Below, in pieces: positions 45,593 through 55,876 of a stretch of 64,000 nucleotides of DNA. Numbering within the stretch: position 1 is the stretch's first letter; each line of letters begins with the position of its first letter. The notes beneath the pieces were generated by a model. That model searched no databases. It was given only the letters and a program-made list of their open reading frames with translations, and was not told where the DNA came from. Origin of the DNA: a bacterium (GTDB lineage Bacteria > Hinthialibacterota > Hinthialibacteria > OLB16); NCBI GenBank assembly GCA_022072055.1, contig JAJVIK010000004.1, positions 62,001-126,000 on the forward strand, in the 5' to 3' direction. The translations under genes were made by a program, and so were the position numbers.

Positions 45593-45790
45593 ATGTTCGG
45601 CATCAACCACACGGAAATCATGATCATCCTGCTGGTGATGGTCCTTCTGTTCGGGGCCACCCGCATTCCCGAACTCGGGCGTTCGCTCGGACGCGGCATC
45701 AAGGAGTTCAAGATGGGATTGCGCTCGATCGACGAGGATGACGCGCCCGAGGGCGAGAAGAAGAAGCTTAACCAATCCGAGGATGTCTGA
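45593..45790 (+). CDS. tatA: Twin-arginine translocase subunit TatA/TatE
   Basis: A 65-residue Tat pore protein. The N-terminal membrane helix (EIMIILLVMVLLFGATRIPE, 8-27) is followed by the hinge and amphipathic helix LGRSLGRGIKEFKMGLRSID and an acidic/basic tail. The G-x-x-R-I-P-E-L-G-R-S-L-G-R-G-I-K-E-F pattern is diagnostic. No tatC is adjacent. GGGAGAAG precedes the ATG. The upstream 200 bases form a divergent region with the large exported protein; I see no sure promoter there. Confidence 0.94.
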   Translation: MFGINHTEIMIILLVMVLLFGATRIPELGRSLGRGIKEFKMGLRSIDEDDAPEGEKKKLNQSEDV

Positions 45791-46918: not shown

Positions 46919-47937
46919 CCGCCTTTACCCCGCGAGAACTCCACAAGGAACTTCTCCAGCAGAGTCTGGGGGTCTTCCCAACTCTGCTTGAGAGCGCGAT
47001 CCAGGTGGAACAGGGCCTTCTGTTCACGGCGAAGCCGCGGCAGGGAACGTCCCGCCACCTGGGGTTTGATCTTCCTAATGATAAAGGGAGCCATCCCCTC
47101 CGGCGTCCCACGGCCTTTCGCCTCGGCGCTCTTCACCTGAAGTCGCTGCTGGTTCCAGGACAGCAGGGCCGGGACAATCCCATAGATGTCGGTCCCGCTC
47201 TCCTCCAGGGTCTTCATCGCCGCGAGCGCCTTGCCCGGATTTCCCTCGCCGAGAGCGTCCCCGGTCTCCCAGATCTTGGCTTGCGGCTCCGCTTGGGTGA
47301 GGGCCTGCCAGGTATCCAAGTCCGCTTCCTTCCCTTCCTCGGTGGCCAAGGCGACTTTTTCCAGATCAGCGGCCAAAACCGAAAGGGGGGCGTCCGAGGC
47401 GGTCATGGCCTCAAGGAGATCGGCCCCCAGCGCAACCTCCGCGCGCTTGGCCAGGGCCTGGATCCACTGTTCGCGGACCTTCCCTTTCGGGGGTGAGGCA
47501 TCAACTTGAACGGAGCATTCGGCAAGGGTCTTTAGAAGCTGCGAAGTCGGCTTGAGGTCCCCGGTTTCGACAAGGACTCGGGTATGCTCTTTGGGGAGAT
47601 CCCTGAGGATCCGAGCCAGCTCCGCGAGCTGGTTCTTGCCCAGCGTGGAAAGGAGTGGGACCTTCTGATTCTTGCGGTTGCTTGCCGGGGGATCGGTGAG
47701 GACAAGGACTTTCCTCAGGGAGAAGAACGAGCCGCCTCCCGCGGCGGCGCCGAGCGCGGCGATCCCGGGACTCCCGATCAGAAACTCAAGCGTGGCCTCC
47801 TCCTCGCCGGTCGACCACGCCATGACGATCCGCCGCCGGATTGTTTCCCGGATCAGGGCATCCTCGCCCCGGAGGTGGACCACGGGGGGCGGAGTCTCCG
47901 TTTTGAGCTGTTTGAGGAAGCCGAAGGCGTCCTTCAT
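46915..47937 (-). CDS. holA: DNA polymerase III subunit delta
   Basis: A 340-residue clamp-loader subunit of the replisome. PPVVHLRGEDALIRETIRRR and GGGSFFSLRKVLVLTDPPAS match the HolA N-terminal domain, and DIYGIVPALLSWNQQRL and SLPRLRREQKALFHLDRALK the helical end. Such divergent delta subunits are recognised mainly by this pattern and context. lptE lies just upstream, as is common. The ATG at 47937 overlaps the lptE stop (ATGA) and has GAGG 6 bases upstream. Confidence 0.88.
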   Translation of the reverse strand: MKDAFGFLKQLKTETPPPVVHLRGEDALIRETIRRRIVMAWSTGEEEATLEFLIGSPGIAALGAAAGGGSFFSLRKVLVLTDPPASNRKNQKVPLLSTLGKNQLAELARILRDLPKEHTRVLVETGDLKPTSQLLKTLAECSVQVDASPPKGKVREQWIQALAKRAEVALGADLLEAMTASDAPLSVLAADLEKVALATEEGKEADLDTWQALTQAEPQAKIWETGDALGEGNPGKALAAMKTLEESGTDIYGIVPALLSWNQQRLQVKSAEAKGRGTPEGMAPFIIRKIKPQVAGRSLPRLRREQKALFHLDRALKQSWEDPQTLLEKFLVEFSRGKGG

Positions 47938-48404
47938 CCCCAACCCTCGATCAGGCGGCTGATGATCTGTTCGGCGATCCGACGGTGCACGTCATCCTCG
48001 CGCCGCCCGCTGGGGACATTCGACAGGAAGAACACGCCACGATCCGAGAATGTCTGCTCCGGCATCACCCAGAGACCTGTGTTCGGGTCGCGAGCGCCCG
48101 CGCGCACGCTGAGGGAAAGACTCTTGCCCGCGGTGCGGTTATCGTTGTTGAGGGCCACGGGCTGCAGGAGATACTCGGCGATGTCCAATTCGAGGATCAG
48201 GTCCGCGTTACGCCAATCATCCACCTGCCGCAGGCGGCCATCGCGCTGGAACTCCTCGACCATCGACTCGGTGAGTCGCTCCTCGGCGCCGTATTCGAGC
48301 GAGGAGTTTTTGGCCATGCGGATGAAGACAGTCTCATACTGGGGGGGAAGACTCCGGACCCCCGCCGCGCCGCAACCGGCGAGAATCACGGCCGCCAGGA
48401 TCAA
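47934..48404 (-). CDS. lptE: LPS-assembly lipoprotein LptE-like
   Basis: A 156-residue lipoprotein with ILAAVILAGCGAAGVRSLPP as signal and lipobox (LAGC, C11). The family pattern is SLPPQYETVFIRMAKNSSLE, RLTESMVEEFQRDGRLRQV, ADLILELDIAEYLLQPV. LptE plugs LptD at the outer membrane and inserts lipopolysaccharide. The start is uncertain: the TTG at 48404 overlaps the previous stop (TTGA) but has no Shine-Dalgarno and gives a signal peptide with no positive charge. An upstream start in the same frame is possible. It precedes holA directly. Confidence 0.8.
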   Translation of the reverse strand: MILAAVILAGCGAAGVRSLPPQYETVFIRMAKNSSLEYGAEERLTESMVEEFQRDGRLRQVDDWRNADLILELDIAEYLLQPVALNNDNRTAGKSLSLSVRAGARDPNTGLWVMPEQTFSDRGVFFLSNVPSGRREDDVHRRIAEQIISRLIEGWG

Positions 48405-48631
48405 AATTTGCCGATGAAAACAAAGAAGGCGTAGATCCCGGTGAGGATCAGGGTCACCTTGTCCCGAATGGCGAGGAAATTGAAGCGCAAATCCCCTGAC
48501 CATCGTCCCAGGAACTCGATGGCAAATCCCACGCAGAACACCCCGGCGTAGATGACGCAAAACGCGATTCCGATCTTGAACAGCTTCCATATCAGGCTCT
48601 TGATGACCGCCGTTCCATACCCAACCGCCAC
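48401..48631 (-). CDS. Small membrane protein
   Basis: A 76-residue protein with two hydrophobic segments (LFKIGIAFCVIYAGVFCVGF and VTLILTGIYAFFVFIGKF). It begins at a GTG (48631) with AGGAGG about 12 bases upstream. No family was recognised. It ends in the lptE start overlap, so the two are translationally coupled, and it may help in lipid or LPS handling; this is inference. It is downstream of the helical-lipoprotein cluster. Confidence 0.6.
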   Translation of the reverse strand: MAVGYGTAVIKSLIWKLFKIGIAFCVIYAGVFCVGFAIEFLGRWSGDLRFNFLAIRDKVTLILTGIYAFFVFIGKF

Positions 48632-48667
48632 GGATCATCCCCTCCTTTTCGCGCGCGATGGTGAGCT

Positions 48668-49045
48668 TTACGCGGTGTCTTCCTGGTACTCGGACTCGAA
48701 CACCGCCACCGATTTCGAGGCCTGGATAAAGGAGTCGTGCCAGAGATTGCGGATGTTGTCATGGATGATCGGCGATTCCTGCCGGATGTATTCGAGGGAC
48801 TGACAGGTGTTCAGCAGGCCCTTGACCTTCTCGTGGATATTCCACTTCCCCTCGGTAACCGTCGCCAGGATCCGGCTGCGTTGAACAACCTGGGCCTTGA
48901 GGACCAGGAATTTCATTTCCACGTCATCCGGCAGGTTCGGGGCCTTCAGCGAATCCTCCATCATCTCACGGAAAGTCTTCCAACTTTCGATGAACCCCTT
49001 GGCCAGCTCATGTGGGGGAGGGCCGACATAGTTTTCAAGCGCCAC
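48668..49045 (-). CDS. Helical protein of unknown function, distant paralogue of the gene at 52.7 kb
   Basis: A 125-residue all-helical, soluble protein with a GTG start. It shows no named family. Its pattern W-x-x-F, then EMKFLVLKAQVVQRSRIL, then NTCQSLEYIRQESPIIHDNI, IRNLWHDSFIQASKS follows that of the 137-residue protein at 52.7 kb (SEYQFLQMKSEVARRHQFLF; IEKFWHMVFLNLQDTLI) in the same order. The two flank the long lipoprotein gene. They could be subunits of one complex. Confidence 0.65.
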   Translation of the reverse strand: MALENYVGPPPHELAKGFIESWKTFREMMEDSLKAPNLPDDVEMKFLVLKAQVVQRSRILATVTEGKWNIHEKVKGLLNTCQSLEYIRQESPIIHDNIRNLWHDSFIQASKSVAVFESEYQEDTA

Positions 49046-49063
49046 GGTCTAGAGCCTCGTCTG

Positions 49064-49168
49064 TCAGTCGCGACGGAATACGCCCAGGCAAAATAGCACA
49101 TAAAGGGCGAAAAGAACGATCAGCACGCCATTTGCAATTTCAAGATTCTGAGGGGTGAGAAAATCCAT
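49064..49168 (-). CDS. 34-residue single-pass membrane microprotein
   Basis: ATG at 49168 to TGA at 49064-49066. The peptide starts MDFLTPQNLEIANG, then has one hydrophobic helix (VLIVLFALYVLFCLGVF), and ends with the positive RRD, which puts the C-terminus in the cytoplasm. It lies in the 152-base gap between the long lipoprotein gene and the next helical gene, in the same direction, with a modest GGAAAG upstream. It is small, so coding is not proved, but the hydrophobic helix, start and stop, and operon place make it likely. A frame-blind annotation would miss it. Confidence 0.55.
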   Translation of the reverse strand: MDFLTPQNLEIANGVLIVLFALYVLFCLGVFRRD

Positions 49169-49197
49169 TGGGTTCGCTTTCCGGGATCAGCGTGGCC

Positions 49198-52100
49198 TCA
49201 GCCCGCGGACTTATCGCGTCGAAGATACGCGGTGAAGGCGCTGAGCTCATCCGAAATGTCCCGCTCGAAATCCTCGAGGTTGTAGGCTTTCACATCCCTA
49301 AGAATCTGCGTGATCAAGGCGTCGTTCAGGACATGCAATCGCTCGAGCTGAGTGAACGCCTGGGCCAGATGGCGCTCACGGACCCGTTGCGGATAGCGAT
49401 CGTACATCCCGTAGCGCTGGAAGTTGTCCGCCGCCTTCACGAAGGTGGAGAAACTGGAAAGGGCCATCTGGTGGAGGTTGCCCTGGGCCGCCGGAGGGAC
49501 CACAAGACGCACCCGATCATAGAGGCGCTCCGCCTCGCGGCGCAGGTCCGCGACCGCGATTCCAGCCTGGAAAACCTTGTAGGTGTCGATTCGGCTGGTC
49601 GGCGCGGAAGTGAGAATCATTTCATATCCCACTTCTTCCACCGGGTGCCACTGATCCAGGAAGCGAGTCATGTCATAGGTCCAGAGAACAATGTCCCGCA
49701 TGTAGTCCAGCGCGTTGCGTCTCTCAATCGCGGTCTGGTTCAGCTGGTTGGCCTGGGCTTCCGCGGCTCGGAGCTGGTTGCCGATCCCGATGAAATCGAT
49801 GGCCTCCGAGCCCTCCAGTTTGTTGCGGACCAGGAAAACCATGTCACGCGCTTTCTCATAGTTGTCCACCGCCGAGTTGAACACGCTCTGGGCCAGATCA
49901 CGGGCTCCGATTTCACGCGCGTTGTCGATGTCGGTGCGGACCTTCTGAACACGGAGATCGATACTGTTGAGCGCGACCTCCTGCATGCGGCCAAGTTCCG
50001 ACTCCACCTGGGCAAGCGCCCTCACCCCTTGCTGATAGTAGTCCAGCTCCGGCTTGAGCCGATCCAGGACGGGATCGTATTGGACCGCGGCCACCTGCTC
50101 GCGGAGCCCGCCGCCGGTTGTCTCCACGAACTGGATCAGCCCGCCGCGCTCGACCTCGCCGATCTTGGCCACGAGCTCCTCGCGCTTCGTGTTGAGGTTG
50201 TGGATCTTGGTGGCCACAATCTGCTTGCCGACCGCGTCCTTCCCCTCTTCATAAAGGGCGAAAACCCTGGGGAGATCCGCTCGAAGAATCGCGTCATCCA
50301 CCGCGCCGATCCGGGCCGTCGCCTCGGCTAGAAAGGCGTTCCCGAAATCATCCTGCACATAGGACTTGAGCTGATTGACCAAGTTGTCGTACTCCCCTCG
50401 AACAAGCTGAGCCTCGTCCGCGAGCTTGGCAAAGGTCCGTTCGGCCTGGGCGCGTCCGGCCTCGGCTTGCTCATAGGCGGACTGGAAGCTCTCCTGGGCG
50501 AAAAGCTGCTCGGCCTGGGAAAGTGAATTGGAGGTCTCGCCGAATTCCGCTGCGGCATAGGTCGCCCCCCGGCCGGCATCCGCTTTCGCGACCTGAGCCT
50601 TCAGTTCGGCGATGGACTGGGTGGCGCGCGCGCGCCATGTCCGCACCTCGGAGGCATTGGCCTTCTCAAGGGCCGAATCCGCCAAAGTCCGAGAGGCGGC
50701 GTAATCACCCGCCTCCATCTTGTCGCGCGCCTCGGCAAGGTCGACCAGGGCCGAGGCAATCGCCTCGGAGTCATAGTCTTGAGCGAGCGCTCCGATCGCG
50801 GAGTCCGTGGCCTTCTTGGCGTTTTCGATCTGGTTCATCCGCGCTTGGATGGCAACTTCATGGGCCTCTTCCATCTTGTGAAGCGCGGCTCGGAAATCCT
50901 TGTTCAGGAAGGCCTTCCCCGACTGATCCAGGGCATCCAGCGCCTGATTGTAAAGCGCCGCCGCGTAAGATGGCGCTCCTGACTGGCGGGCGCGCAGGAG
51001 TTCGCGCTCGGCGTCCGGCTTAAGCTCTTCGGTCCTCAAACGATAGGCTTCTTGGGCGGCGGCCTCGGCGCGGGTCCGGGCCTCCTCGGAGGACTGAATG
51101 GCCGCCTTCCAGTCCGAGGTGGCGGCCCCGCCGCGGGCCTTTTCGAGGCTGCCATCAGCCTCCGCCAGCATCTCCGCGGCGCGTTCGCGCGCACCCGCGG
51201 AAACCGCCTCTCCATGCGCGCTCTCGGCCTCCGCCAAGCGGTTCTGCGCCACCTCGCGCAGACGCGCCTCCAAGCCGAGGATCTTCTGCTCGGCCTCGTC
51301 GAGAGTCTTTTCCGCGTCGGCGAAGGAGCCGATCCCGACCTGCCCGCTTGCATCCTCGATCAATCCCTGGATCGCTTGATACTCGGCGGTCACATACTGA
51401 TAGGCGCCCTTGCCCTCCATCTCCAGCAAATTGTCCTGATCCTCGCGAATCCGCAGGGAGAGCTGCACCGAGCGCGCTTGTCCGATGGCTTCCTCGATCG
51501 CCCCCGCTCCGGTCTCCAACGTCGCCTCGGCATCCTCATAGAGGATATCCTCCAGTAGGCTCTTGGCACGGTCGCGCGCGGCGACCGCTTCACCATACTC
51601 CTCCGAGGCGATGCGGGCGGTATCGTACTTAAGCGACTCTTCGAGCCGAATCTCGAGCTGCTCGATCTGACGGCGGATGTCATCCTCAAGGCCACGGGTC
51701 TCGCCGCGGGCGGTGCTCAGCGCGGCGTCCGCCGTCTCGTAGGCGGCGTCAAAGTTCCCCTGCTGGAGTTGGGTGGCCGCGCCGTCGGCATCCTTCTTGG
51801 CGGCGTCAATCTTCTCCAGTGATGCGCCCGGCTCCGCCTCGGCCAGTTTGATCAGGCGATTGGCCTGCTCGATACGGGCCCGCGCGCGCGCCTCCCGCGC
51901 CCGCTGCTCAAAAGCTCCAATGTCCCGCTCAAGTGGAGGAAACTGGGTCAGCACCGCGCGGTAGCTGGCCGCCTCCACCAGCGCCTTGGCGCTCTCGATG
52001 GCCTCGGGGACAATTTGGGATTCGGGGACATACTTGAGCACATCCAGGTTCACGGCCCTCTTCCAGGCATCCTCAATCCGCGAGATCAGCTTCTGGGAAT

Positions 52101-52680
52101 TGTCCTTCTCCAACACCGCAAGGGATGCGGTGGCCTCATCCAGGAAGGCCTTCGCCTCCTGGAGCATCTTGTCGTAACCCTGATCCCCCTCGACCACCTG
52201 AACTTGGGCTTCCTGAATCTGCGCGACCCGTTGGTCAATTCCCGCCCCGCGCTCCACCAGCGCGGTTTCCTCCGGGGCAATCGCCTTGATCTGAGCGAGA
52301 GTGGCGTTCATGCGCTCCTGAAGCGCGATCAGATCGGTCTTCTTCTGCTGGATCACCGCCTTGGCCTGCGGAAGCCGTGAGCGGATCTGCTCGATGGTGG
52401 ACAACGCCGAATCCCCAAGTCCCAACGCTTCATCGAAGTTCTTGCCCTCGACCGCCGCCTGGGAGTCGCTGAGAGCCTTATTCGCGCTGGTGAAGAGGTC
52501 CGGGAGGAAGCGGTTGGCCTGCTGCGCCTGAACATCCGCGAGCTGCGCCTCCACCTCCTGGTTCTTCTTGTTGGCCTGCATCTTCTTCCACAGGCCGCAG
52601 CCCGAAAGGGTGACCGCCAGCGCCAGCGCGAGCACGCCCAAGACATGGCGGGTCAGGCTCTTGGGGGAAGTGGGCATCAT
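49198..52680 (-). CDS. Very long helical lipoprotein (about 1160 residues)
   Basis: A lipoprotein with signal and lipobox (VLALALAVTLSGCGLWKK, C28). The rest is almost wholly helical, rich in Ala, Glu, Leu, Gln and Arg, with repeated helical-hairpin units (for example AKADAGRGATYAAAEFGETS, NSLSQAEQLFAQESFQSAYE, QAEAGRAQAERTFAKLADEA; AALYNQALDALDQSGKAFLN). Unit ends often hold D/E-F-x-x-A or KDFRAAL. It resembles DUF4398- or TPR-like repeat scaffolds found in envelope proteins. The ATG at 52680 overlaps the stop of the upstream gene by 4 bases. Acting as a periplasmic or outer-membrane scaffold is a reasonable guess. Confidence 0.75.
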   Translation of the reverse strand: MMPTSPKSLTRHVLGVLALALAVTLSGCGLWKKMQANKKNQEVEAQLADVQAQQANRFLPDLFTSANKALSDSQAAVEGKNFDEALGLGDSALSTIEQIRSRLPQAKAVIQQKKTDLIALQERMNATLAQIKAIAPEETALVERGAGIDQRVAQIQEAQVQVVEGDQGYDKMLQEAKAFLDEATASLAVLEKDNSQKLISRIEDAWKRAVNLDVLKYVPESQIVPEAIESAKALVEAASYRAVLTQFPPLERDIGAFEQRAREARARARIEQANRLIKLAEAEPGASLEKIDAAKKDADGAATQLQQGNFDAAYETADAALSTARGETRGLEDDIRRQIEQLEIRLEESLKYDTARIASEEYGEAVAARDRAKSLLEDILYEDAEATLETGAGAIEEAIGQARSVQLSLRIREDQDNLLEMEGKGAYQYVTAEYQAIQGLIEDASGQVGIGSFADAEKTLDEAEQKILGLEARLREVAQNRLAEAESAHGEAVSAGARERAAEMLAEADGSLEKARGGAATSDWKAAIQSSEEARTRAEAAAQEAYRLRTEELKPDAERELLRARQSGAPSYAAALYNQALDALDQSGKAFLNKDFRAALHKMEEAHEVAIQARMNQIENAKKATDSAIGALAQDYDSEAIASALVDLAEARDKMEAGDYAASRTLADSALEKANASEVRTWRARATQSIAELKAQVAKADAGRGATYAAAEFGETSNSLSQAEQLFAQESFQSAYEQAEAGRAQAERTFAKLADEAQLVRGEYDNLVNQLKSYVQDDFGNAFLAEATARIGAVDDAILRADLPRVFALYEEGKDAVGKQIVATKIHNLNTKREELVAKIGEVERGGLIQFVETTGGGLREQVAAVQYDPVLDRLKPELDYYQQGVRALAQVESELGRMQEVALNSIDLRVQKVRTDIDNAREIGARDLAQSVFNSAVDNYEKARDMVFLVRNKLEGSEAIDFIGIGNQLRAAEAQANQLNQTAIERRNALDYMRDIVLWTYDMTRFLDQWHPVEEVGYEMILTSAPTSRIDTYKVFQAGIAVADLRREAERLYDRVRLVVPPAAQGNLHQMALSSFSTFVKAADNFQRYGMYDRYPQRVRERHLAQAFTQLERLHVLNDALITQILRDVKAYNLEDFERDISDELSAFTAYLRRDKSAG

Positions 52681-53090
52681 TGCTTGTCCTCCTGATCCAA
52701 TCGGAATTGGATCGAAATCAGGGTGTCCTGGAGATTCAGAAACACCATGTGCCAAAACTTCTCAATCTTGTGATAGTTATCCTTCTGCGTCTTGGAGACC
52801 TTCTCCAGGTTCACGATCATCCGCAGCAAATCAGTGAGCAACCCACCGTTGATGTACAGGTCTCCCAGCTGCTCAAAGAGGAACTGGTGTCTCCTGGCCA
52901 CCTCGGATTTCATCTGGAGGAACTGGTACTCCGATTGGGAGGTCACGGGCTCTCCCAAGAATGCATGGCGGAACGCCCAATAGAACTGGGTCCACAGTTC
53001 CAGAAAGGAACGAATCCCGGCGACACACTCCTCAAACCGCTCCCGCTCCTTGGGCGGGATAGCGGCCGAAGCGCTTTTTTTCGCGGCCAT
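52677..53090 (-). CDS. Helical protein of unknown function, distant paralogue of the gene at 48.7 kb
   Basis: A 137-residue helical protein (137 if started at the ATG at 53090; a GTG at 53117 would add nine residues). Its core has W-x-x-F, SEYQFLQMKSEVARRHQFLF, LLTDLLRMIVNLEKVSKTQ, IEKFWHMVFLNLQDTLISIQ, and ends DQEDKQ, parallel to the 48.7-kb protein. It has no signal peptide, whereas the gene it couples to encodes a lipoprotein. It follows the Gly/Tyr-rich gene by 70 bases. Confidence 0.65.
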   Translation of the reverse strand: MAAKKSASAAIPPKERERFEECVAGIRSFLELWTQFYWAFRHAFLGEPVTSQSEYQFLQMKSEVARRHQFLFEQLGDLYINGGLLTDLLRMIVNLEKVSKTQKDNYHKIEKFWHMVFLNLQDTLISIQFRLDQEDKQ

Positions 53091-53160
53091 CTCTCGAAAA
53101 TCCTCCACATCCTCCACTCCCCGACACCAAGACGGGGACCAGAGACAAAAAAGCCCAAAC

Positions 53161-54411
53161 TCAGAAAGCGAATCCCAGCGCTCCCCCGGCAGGGGTTATC
53201 GGCGAGGGAACCCCCACGTTGTATCCCGAAGGAACAGGCGGCACGCCACCCGGAATCAGGCCCGCCCCCGGTCGAATTCCGCCGCCATATCCGCCCCCGC
53301 CATACCCACCATAGCCCCCACCATACCCGCCGTAGCCACCGTAACCGCCACCATACCCCCCAAAGCCCCCTTGCGCGCCATAGCCGCCGAGCCCCAAGTT
53401 TATGCCCGCGCGAAGCCCGAGCGTGGAAAGCGCGCCCGCGGTGCCCGAACGGTACTCCGAGAGCTGAACAGCCGAATACCCCCCCGGAAACCAGCTCGCA
53501 TCCGCGATCTCAGTCCCGGCCAGGGCGGCCAGCATCTCCTTTTCCACCTTGACTTTCTTTCCAGTCGAAAGGGCCAGGTTCCAGGTGTCCACCCCTTGAG
53601 ACTCCCTGCGAGACTGTTGGGAATTGGATTCCAGTCCGGTGGGCGGGTCGACCCGATCATTGAAGGGGGTTAGATCCTTCCCCTCGGCGTTCTGGTAGGC
53701 CCGGATGATATCCAGGCTATCCCTCATCACGAAGGCGTACATGCGCTTTTCCAGCGAGGAGAGGCGATAGACTCCGGGCCCGGTGCGAGTCTCCGGCTTC
53801 CATGGGACATCCTCGGCGTCCCAATCGAGCGAAACCACCGGCAGATCGAAAAAGCGCTGGGGACCATCCGGGTGGGCCGCGACGGCAAACATGATGCCTT
53901 TTAACTCATCATAGTTCGCGGCCGTGCGCGGACCGATGAAATCCGTGGAATTGACTTGGATTCGAGAGGGGACCCCATCGCGCGGGACCTCATCCCCATG
54001 CCGGCCATTGTCATATTCTCGAACTGCTTCCTTGCGGGTGAGCTTGTTGGGTTGGACAGTCACGTCATTGACAATCATCCGTCCGTCCACGGCGTCATAG
54101 ATCCGGCTCGCGCCCTTCTTTTGCCAGCCCTTCTTGGCGGTGACAAAGGTCTCGGCCTGCGGCTCGGCGGGCTGGCCTGGCTGCCCCCCTTGCGCGGCTT
54201 TAACCGTATCCTGAAAAGCTTGGTTGGCCGCGCCTGCCCCCTCGATGTAGCTTCCCGGCGCGAGACGTTCCTGGTCGGCTTGGCTCCCTACAGTGAGGTC
54301 GCTTTTTATCTCCACTTTGGGGGGCGGGGCTTGCGCGAAGCCTAGGACCGGATGGAACAGGCATGCCCCCAGCGATGCGATCAGGCTCAAGGCGCGCTTT
54401 CCGTGTGTCAT
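53161..54411 (-). CDS. Exported protein with Gly/Tyr-rich repeat tail
   Basis: A 416-residue protein with a signal peptide (LSLIASLGACLFHPVLGFAQA). The middle domain (SLDWDAEDVPWKPETRTGPG, VYRLSSLEKRMYAFVMRDSL) matches no family I know. Residues 340-378 are low-complexity GYGAQGGFGGYGGGYGGYGG and onward, then a Pro-rich end (IPGGVPPVPSGYNVG). The tail resembles structural or adhesive proteins. The ATG at 54411 has GGAGG 8 bases upstream. A strong promoter lies 180 bases before it (54591-54620). It is probably the first gene of the lipoprotein cluster. Confidence 0.7.
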   Translation of the reverse strand: MTHGKRALSLIASLGACLFHPVLGFAQAPPPKVEIKSDLTVGSQADQERLAPGSYIEGAGAANQAFQDTVKAAQGGQPGQPAEPQAETFVTAKKGWQKKGASRIYDAVDGRMIVNDVTVQPNKLTRKEAVREYDNGRHGDEVPRDGVPSRIQVNSTDFIGPRTAANYDELKGIMFAVAAHPDGPQRFFDLPVVSLDWDAEDVPWKPETRTGPGVYRLSSLEKRMYAFVMRDSLDIIRAYQNAEGKDLTPFNDRVDPPTGLESNSQQSRRESQGVDTWNLALSTGKKVKVEKEMLAALAGTEIADASWFPGGYSAVQLSEYRSGTAGALSTLGLRAGINLGLGGYGAQGGFGGYGGGYGGYGGYGGGYGGYGGGGYGGGIRPGAGLIPGGVPPVPSGYNVGVPSPITPAGGALGFAF

Positions 54412-55228: not shown

Positions 55229-55876
55229 TTAGGTTTCCGGTGGAGAGAGCCTTGGGTTTTGAGCGTTGTCCTGGTACCGCCGGCAACGGACCAAGTCACC
55301 GTCGCTCCGGGTCCCATTCGTGGGTGAATAGACCTTGTTGGCCTTGATATCGGCCCCACGATCACCATCCGGTCCGGCTGAAACCATCCGCCATTGCCCC
55401 CAGGCGGGGATCAGCCCGGAGGCGAAGGGCGGTGGCGAGGGGCCGAAATTCGCGACATGCTGGTCCAGGTTCAGGTACTCGATCTGCTTCAGGACACTCC
55501 GAGCATCGAGATTTTCGGCGAACAAATCGGCGGGAACCGAATCGAGATACCCGACTGGGGTGGTGATGGGCGCCCCGACGAAGGCCATCAGGTCGCTGAG
55601 GGAGTTGGTTGTCGCCGGGTATTGGATCGCGCCGCCCGGATCGACTCGGCCATAGGGAGGGTATCTTCTCCAGTCCAGGGCATAGGATTCCACAGCGAGG
55701 GAAAAGGTCCGCATGTCGCTGACCACCCGCGCCGCCTTGGCTCTTATTTGAGCCTCAATCAGGTTCGGGAGCGCGATCTCCATCAGGATCAGGATGATCG
55801 CGACCACAATCAGCAATTCGATCAGTGTGAATCCGCGCGTGGCCATCCTGGGGAGCTCTGTCATACGAATTATCAT
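55229..55876 (-). CDS. Type II secretion/type IV pseudopilin
   Basis: A 215-residue pilin-like protein. RGFTLIELLIVVAIILILME is the prepilin peptidase site (cut after Gly, F becomes the N-terminus) and the hydrophobic spine. The following SDMRTFSLAVESYALDWRRYPPY and the end YSPTNGTRSDGDLVRCRRY are common in pseudopilins of Sumerlaeota/Hydrogenedentota-like genomes (from memory). It would be assembled at the inner membrane. No secretion ATPase or prepilin peptidase lies near. The start is uncertain; ATGs stand at 55876, 55864 and 55846. Confidence 0.88.
   Translation of the reverse strand: MIIRMTELPRMATRGFTLIELLIVVAIILILMEIALPNLIEAQIRAKAARVVSDMRTFSLAVESYALDWRRYPPYGRVDPGGAIQYPATTNSLSDLMAFVGAPITTPVGYLDSVPADLFAENLDARSVLKQIEYLNLDQHVANFGPSPPPFASGLIPAWGQWRMVSAGPDGDRGADIKANKVYSPTNGTRSDGDLVRCRRYQDNAQNPRLSPPET

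Follow-up and report, generated by a model that had tools for sequence, protein, structure and literature searches.

Tol-Pal and other envelope tethers are built from an outer-membrane lipoprotein and small inner-membrane partners, and Pal and other structural lipoproteins stabilise the envelope. The locus described here lies in a window of 64,000 nucleotides (the whole stretch of DNA that was analysed) from a genome of 5.86 Mb, and has five genes, called A to E, followed by a sixth, F. Like the Tol-Pal type of tether, A to E appear to combine an outer-membrane lipoprotein with one or more small inner-membrane partners. A Pfam search of A to F found neither a TolQ/R-type motor nor an OmpA-like peptidoglycan-binding domain, and no TolB propeller either.

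The type IV pilus machine (PilB-PilC-PilM-PilN-PilO-PilP-PilQ) resembles the locus through a homologue of B and E, named G, whose gene directly follows pilC in two other phyla. However, A to E themselves match no pilus family, and the genomes encode PilM and secretins besides. The lipoproteins with the DUF4398 domain (PF14346) are the closest known counterparts of C, the orthologues of which are like them in having helical hairpins and a lipidated N-terminus but differ in their tandem units of about 71 residues, repeated over 1000 residues, and in their fixed operon. To our knowledge, DUF4398 has no known function; the available excerpts of the literature mentioning the domain indicate none, and those on DUF4398 and Hinthialibacter contain no description of an A-E cluster.

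The original prediction, made from the window's letters, knew of no named system with this gene set, and the library searches agree. A to F gave nothing above the curated cut-offs of Pfam and NCBIfam (Pfam only in the case of D), leaving A, B, D and E unnamed in these libraries, and neither B nor C matched a solved structure in the PDB at E 0.001 or better (Foldseek). No anti-phage defence family of PADLOC was matched by A, B, C, E or two G proteins, and no phage family of PHROGs by A, B, E or the same number of G proteins. The architecture is thus unlike that of any system we can name, with the caution that a missing annotation does not prove a novel function.

The locus and its conservation

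All of the open reading frames in the original prediction were found where it had placed them, on the minus strand (Table 1). A to E run in one direction, from 54411 to 48668, and F, lptE, holA and manC come next, the last three with Pfam matches. The ATGA overlap by which B and C had been said to be coupled was confirmed at 52680-52677. A second overlap, TTGA at 48404-48401, is present as letters, but the start of lptE that it implies is unsure because a TTG start gives a very short signal peptide and the N-termini of relatives in the family are longer. The two-helix protein F is likewise a real frame. A similar one was found at locus L042 and none at L041, so that F, known from the window and L042 only, is lineage-specific and falls outside the conserved set. 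Just upstream of A, and of an exported neighbour of 174 residues, lies a pilin-like gene whose product has a motif for prepilin cleavage (window 55229-55846, minus strand).

Table 1. Genes of the locus, with positions in the window
Gene	Position	Strand	Description
A	53161..54411	-	416 aa, exported, Sec signal peptide, conserved DNGRHGDEVPRDG motif, Gly/Tyr-rich C-terminus
B	52677..53090	-	137 aa, lacks a signal peptide; bundle of antiparallel helices, paralogous to E
C	49198..52680	-	1160-aa lipoprotein, lipobox LSGC, all-helical, repeats of ~71 residues
D	49064..49168	-	34-aa single-pass membrane microprotein, C-terminal FRRD
E	48668..49045	-	125 aa, GTG start, without signal peptide, paralogue of B
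F	48401..48631	-	76-aa two-helix membrane protein, GTG start, lineage-specific, non-core
lptE homologue	47934..48401	-	Pfam LptE 2.9e-11; neighbour outside the conserved set

The original prediction depended on the cluster being kept outside this genome, and the order A-B-C-D-E was found in three phyla. Neither of the two outcomes that it had named as counting against it was obtained. Relatives of C occur in 13 of 41 genomes and relatives of B in 14 of them. Throughout the window's own class, Candidatus Hinthialibacteria, the gene maps have A-B-C-D-E in one direction; at some of these loci the gene finder missed D, which a D profile then recovered. A profile of the B family matches 13/14 genomes of the class and 30 of 386 genomes scattered over the domain. 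In a second phylum (that of our genome G025, probably Sumerlaeota) the same profile matches 39/40 genomes, including 20/20 of those of high quality, mostly with three copies each. There are 30 paired loci in this phylum. B and E were resolved at 27, in the same order save for a few split or misread genes; at the remaining three, a simple gene finder missed B and E, both of which the genome search had located. The third phylum is represented by two genomes, one with A-B-C-D-E (G142) and the other with B-C-D-E (G279), where no A was found at the locus (L131). Searching contigs with the single sequence of C gave no match, and the B-family profile was required.

Judged by sequence, the locus is real, ancient and conserved, and far more conserved than was visible when the original prediction was made. 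A gene set kept in nearly all genomes of a phylum normally serves something basic, and the five genes, in at least three poorly known bacterial phyla, are probably retained together since their products make up a single envelope-spanning structure. No part of A to E has a named function, and the set is a defined and testable one through which envelope biology can be studied in uncultured diderm phyla.

The lipoprotein, the microprotein and the exported protein

A lipoprotein without a retention signal is usually expected in the outer membrane. The Gly-Cys of the lipobox is kept in all eight aligned rows of C, and we infer that its place is in the outer membrane, not the inner one, and that it spans the full width of the periplasm. 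AlphaFold2 predicts C to be all-helical, with a mean pLDDT of 85 and a pTM of 0.34, the latter so low that the overall shape is unreliable. Each repeat of about 71 residues consists of a 43-residue helix and a 19-residue helix. When the C proteins of the window's class were aligned with those of the second phylum by hhalign, the probability was 100 and the E value 1.6e-48, which may be inflated by Ala-rich helical repeats, and the lipobox region matches as well. DUF4398 matches at E up to 0.01 were seen in 11 of 18 C orthologues (6/10 from the second phylum and 5/8 from the window's class), while the window's own C has no DUF4398 match in Pfam.

The microprotein D, with fewer than 50 residues, could easily be missed by ordinary annotation. 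It has a short N-terminus, followed by about 19 hydrophobic residues and a short tail such as YSLNLFKK. Of the 48 intervals between C and an adjacent B-family gene, 47 contain a frame that matches the D profile. Seven of the 47 are second copies of the same genomes, and the single miss is a dnaE-G pair and not a C-E interval. Counted by distinct genomes, 40/40 have D between C and E, or 41/41 when G142 is included, and 13 of the 40, as well as G142, were outside the set from which the D profile was built. Hydropathy and charge suggest that the C-terminus of D is inside.

The exported protein A is also shared between phyla. The A proteins of the window's class and the upstream gene of the second phylum align by hhalign at 99.9%, with E 5.8e-31 over 127 columns. 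Many relatives of A carry DDGTHGDxxxxDG, and the motif (DDG-x-HGD) is found in the third phylum as well; it may be akin to those motifs of secreted proteins that are rich in Asp/Gly and bind metal. Some relatives of A (L052, L053, L145 and L146) have a CxxC pair, either CAVC or CAMC, that the window's A lacks, which suggests a metal or disulphide site of variable occurrence.

A helical family with a member beside pilus genes

The two small helical proteins had been proposed to be paralogues, and this is borne out by BLASTP (E 2e-5) and by a profile-profile comparison (99.1%, E 1e-18, 118 columns). AlphaFold2 gives B as a confident helical bundle (pLDDT 90, pTM 0.80) with helices at residues 13-44, 51-78, 83-99 and 103-136; the likeness of E to B rests on the profiles, B being the one of the two whose structure was predicted. 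Trp-His is invariant in the B-family alignment, and the comparison of the B profile with that of the outgroup family gives E 1e-26. None of 29 members of the B/E/G family matched Pfam. In the second phylum, one of the B/E pair has a C-terminal membrane helix of its own.

G is the third paralogue. It has the same domain and a membrane helix and is encoded away from the cluster; by homology, B, E and G are one family. Since most G proteins have more basic residues before the membrane helix than after it, the bundle is predicted to be placed in the cytoplasm. In the tree, the G proteins of the window's class group with those of the second phylum in a single clade (98/92). A swap of the two cluster copies around C between the phyla, which a first tree had raised, was dropped after a second tree and AU tests (p 0.38 and 0.42) were undeciding.

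In the second and third phyla, G comes directly after pilC (T2SSF) in 13 of 16 loci, mostly as pilB-pilC-G-dprA, or else with a divergent pilT flanking pilC on its far side. Among the outgroup loci, G follows the gene of a PilT-type ATPase (pilT) twice; one genome, doubled in the neighbourhood table, was counted once. The original prediction could not see this third, membrane-anchored member of the helical family, which other phyla encode next to type IV pilus genes. In the window's own class, G is beside none of the PilB, PilC and PilT genes. Co-occurrence with pilus genes is uninformative because PilC-type genes are present in 364 of 386 genomes. The idea that the module substitutes for the pilus alignment complex was rejected for PilM and the secretin, the two components searched for, both being present in 30/30 genomes.

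Other neighbours of G were recorded as well. Pilin-like genes are near G at three loci of the window's class (L055, L056 and L058). At the first of these, which belongs to the genome of the window itself, two paralogues in tandem (L055, 7784-9622) that resemble lipid A acyltransferases by sequence come after G. A gene for an HU/IHF-type DNA-binding protein comes after the single-copy G in 7 of 11 outgroup loci (L117, L118, L119, L122, L125, L127 and L129), and in two of these, tatC-like and tatA-like genes are next.

A possible envelope scaffold and its alternatives

The predicted parts cover the outer membrane, the inner membrane and the cytoplasm, with an exported protein besides. We tentatively propose, at a little under even confidence, that A to E form one envelope-spanning assembly, a fixed scaffold that braces or positions a type IV pilus machine. 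C would be anchored to the outer membrane through its lipid and would form a long helical rod that reaches into the periplasm. D would be a single helix of the inner membrane, with the N-terminus outside and the basic C-terminus on the cytoplasmic side. B and E would be homologous helical bundles at the cytoplasmic face, and A an exported partner in the periplasm or at the surface. Because the cluster encodes neither a motor nor an enzyme, the assembly may be expected to act as a fixed tether or scaffold. It would brace or position the pilus machine via the B/E/G family, the place of G in the pilB-pilC-G-dprA row of other phyla making the pilus the most likely structure to be served in this way.

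Homology, gene order, the lipobox, the predicted topology, the constant presence of D and the place of G are there to be read in the genomes. Shared operons do not prove contact, and that the products of A to E touch each other is something we infer. The pilus would be the client on the basis of the position of G and of the type IV pilus twitching genes reported in all Sumerlaeota MAGs studied (PMC8092238), a connection at the level of the paralogue rather than of A to E. If the pilus link is true, an unrecognised component family would be added to a well-studied nanomachine. We are rather doubtful of a bolder form of the proposal, a new trans-envelope machine with a lipid-anchored helical rod, a single-helix microprotein that is obligate and a pair of bundles in the cytosol, in which the outer membrane is coupled to the inner-membrane platform of the pilus through the widespread, unnamed B/E/G family. 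On that reading, and with the same doubt, at least three phyla would share the full module and further phyla would keep only a pilus-linked or HU-linked member.

The same parts could also make a general outer-membrane tether or a ruler of the width of the periplasm, unrelated to the pilus, with C tying the outer membrane to inner-membrane D, B and E, and with G a mere distant paralogue. This is possible, if not something on which we would rely. Near-universal presence in a whole phylum is what would be expected of a housekeeping structure, C is a giant helical lipoprotein with a weak likeness to Borrelia BB0323 (Foldseek, E above 5, not significant), and the A-E operon itself was never found beside pilus assembly genes at the mapped loci. 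However, such a tether leaves unexplained why G follows pilC so often, the observation from which the pilus scaffold is drawn. A is exported, and at nearly all loci its gene immediately precedes B, as would suit the cargo of a dedicated route of export or display in which B and E are adaptors or chaperones, C a periplasmic carrier and D a membrane adaptor. We consider this unlikely, since the ordinary Sec signal peptide of A would need no adaptors, the cluster is without a channel, ATPase or protease, and no A was found at the G279 locus.

A part for A to E in LPS transport, which the original prediction had linked to the cluster by position, now seems very improbable. In the window's genome lptE is the next gene beyond F, and the cluster is followed by lptE and holA both here and in families f1 and f4. 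These are two of five families only; the neighbourhood varies, with carA-carB-proC in f2 and unrelated genes elsewhere, so that the adjacency is not conserved, and Pfam finds no Lpt family among A to E. Further along the window, a TatA-family gene (NCBIfam TIGR01411) lies at 45593-45790 on the plus strand, divergent from manC.
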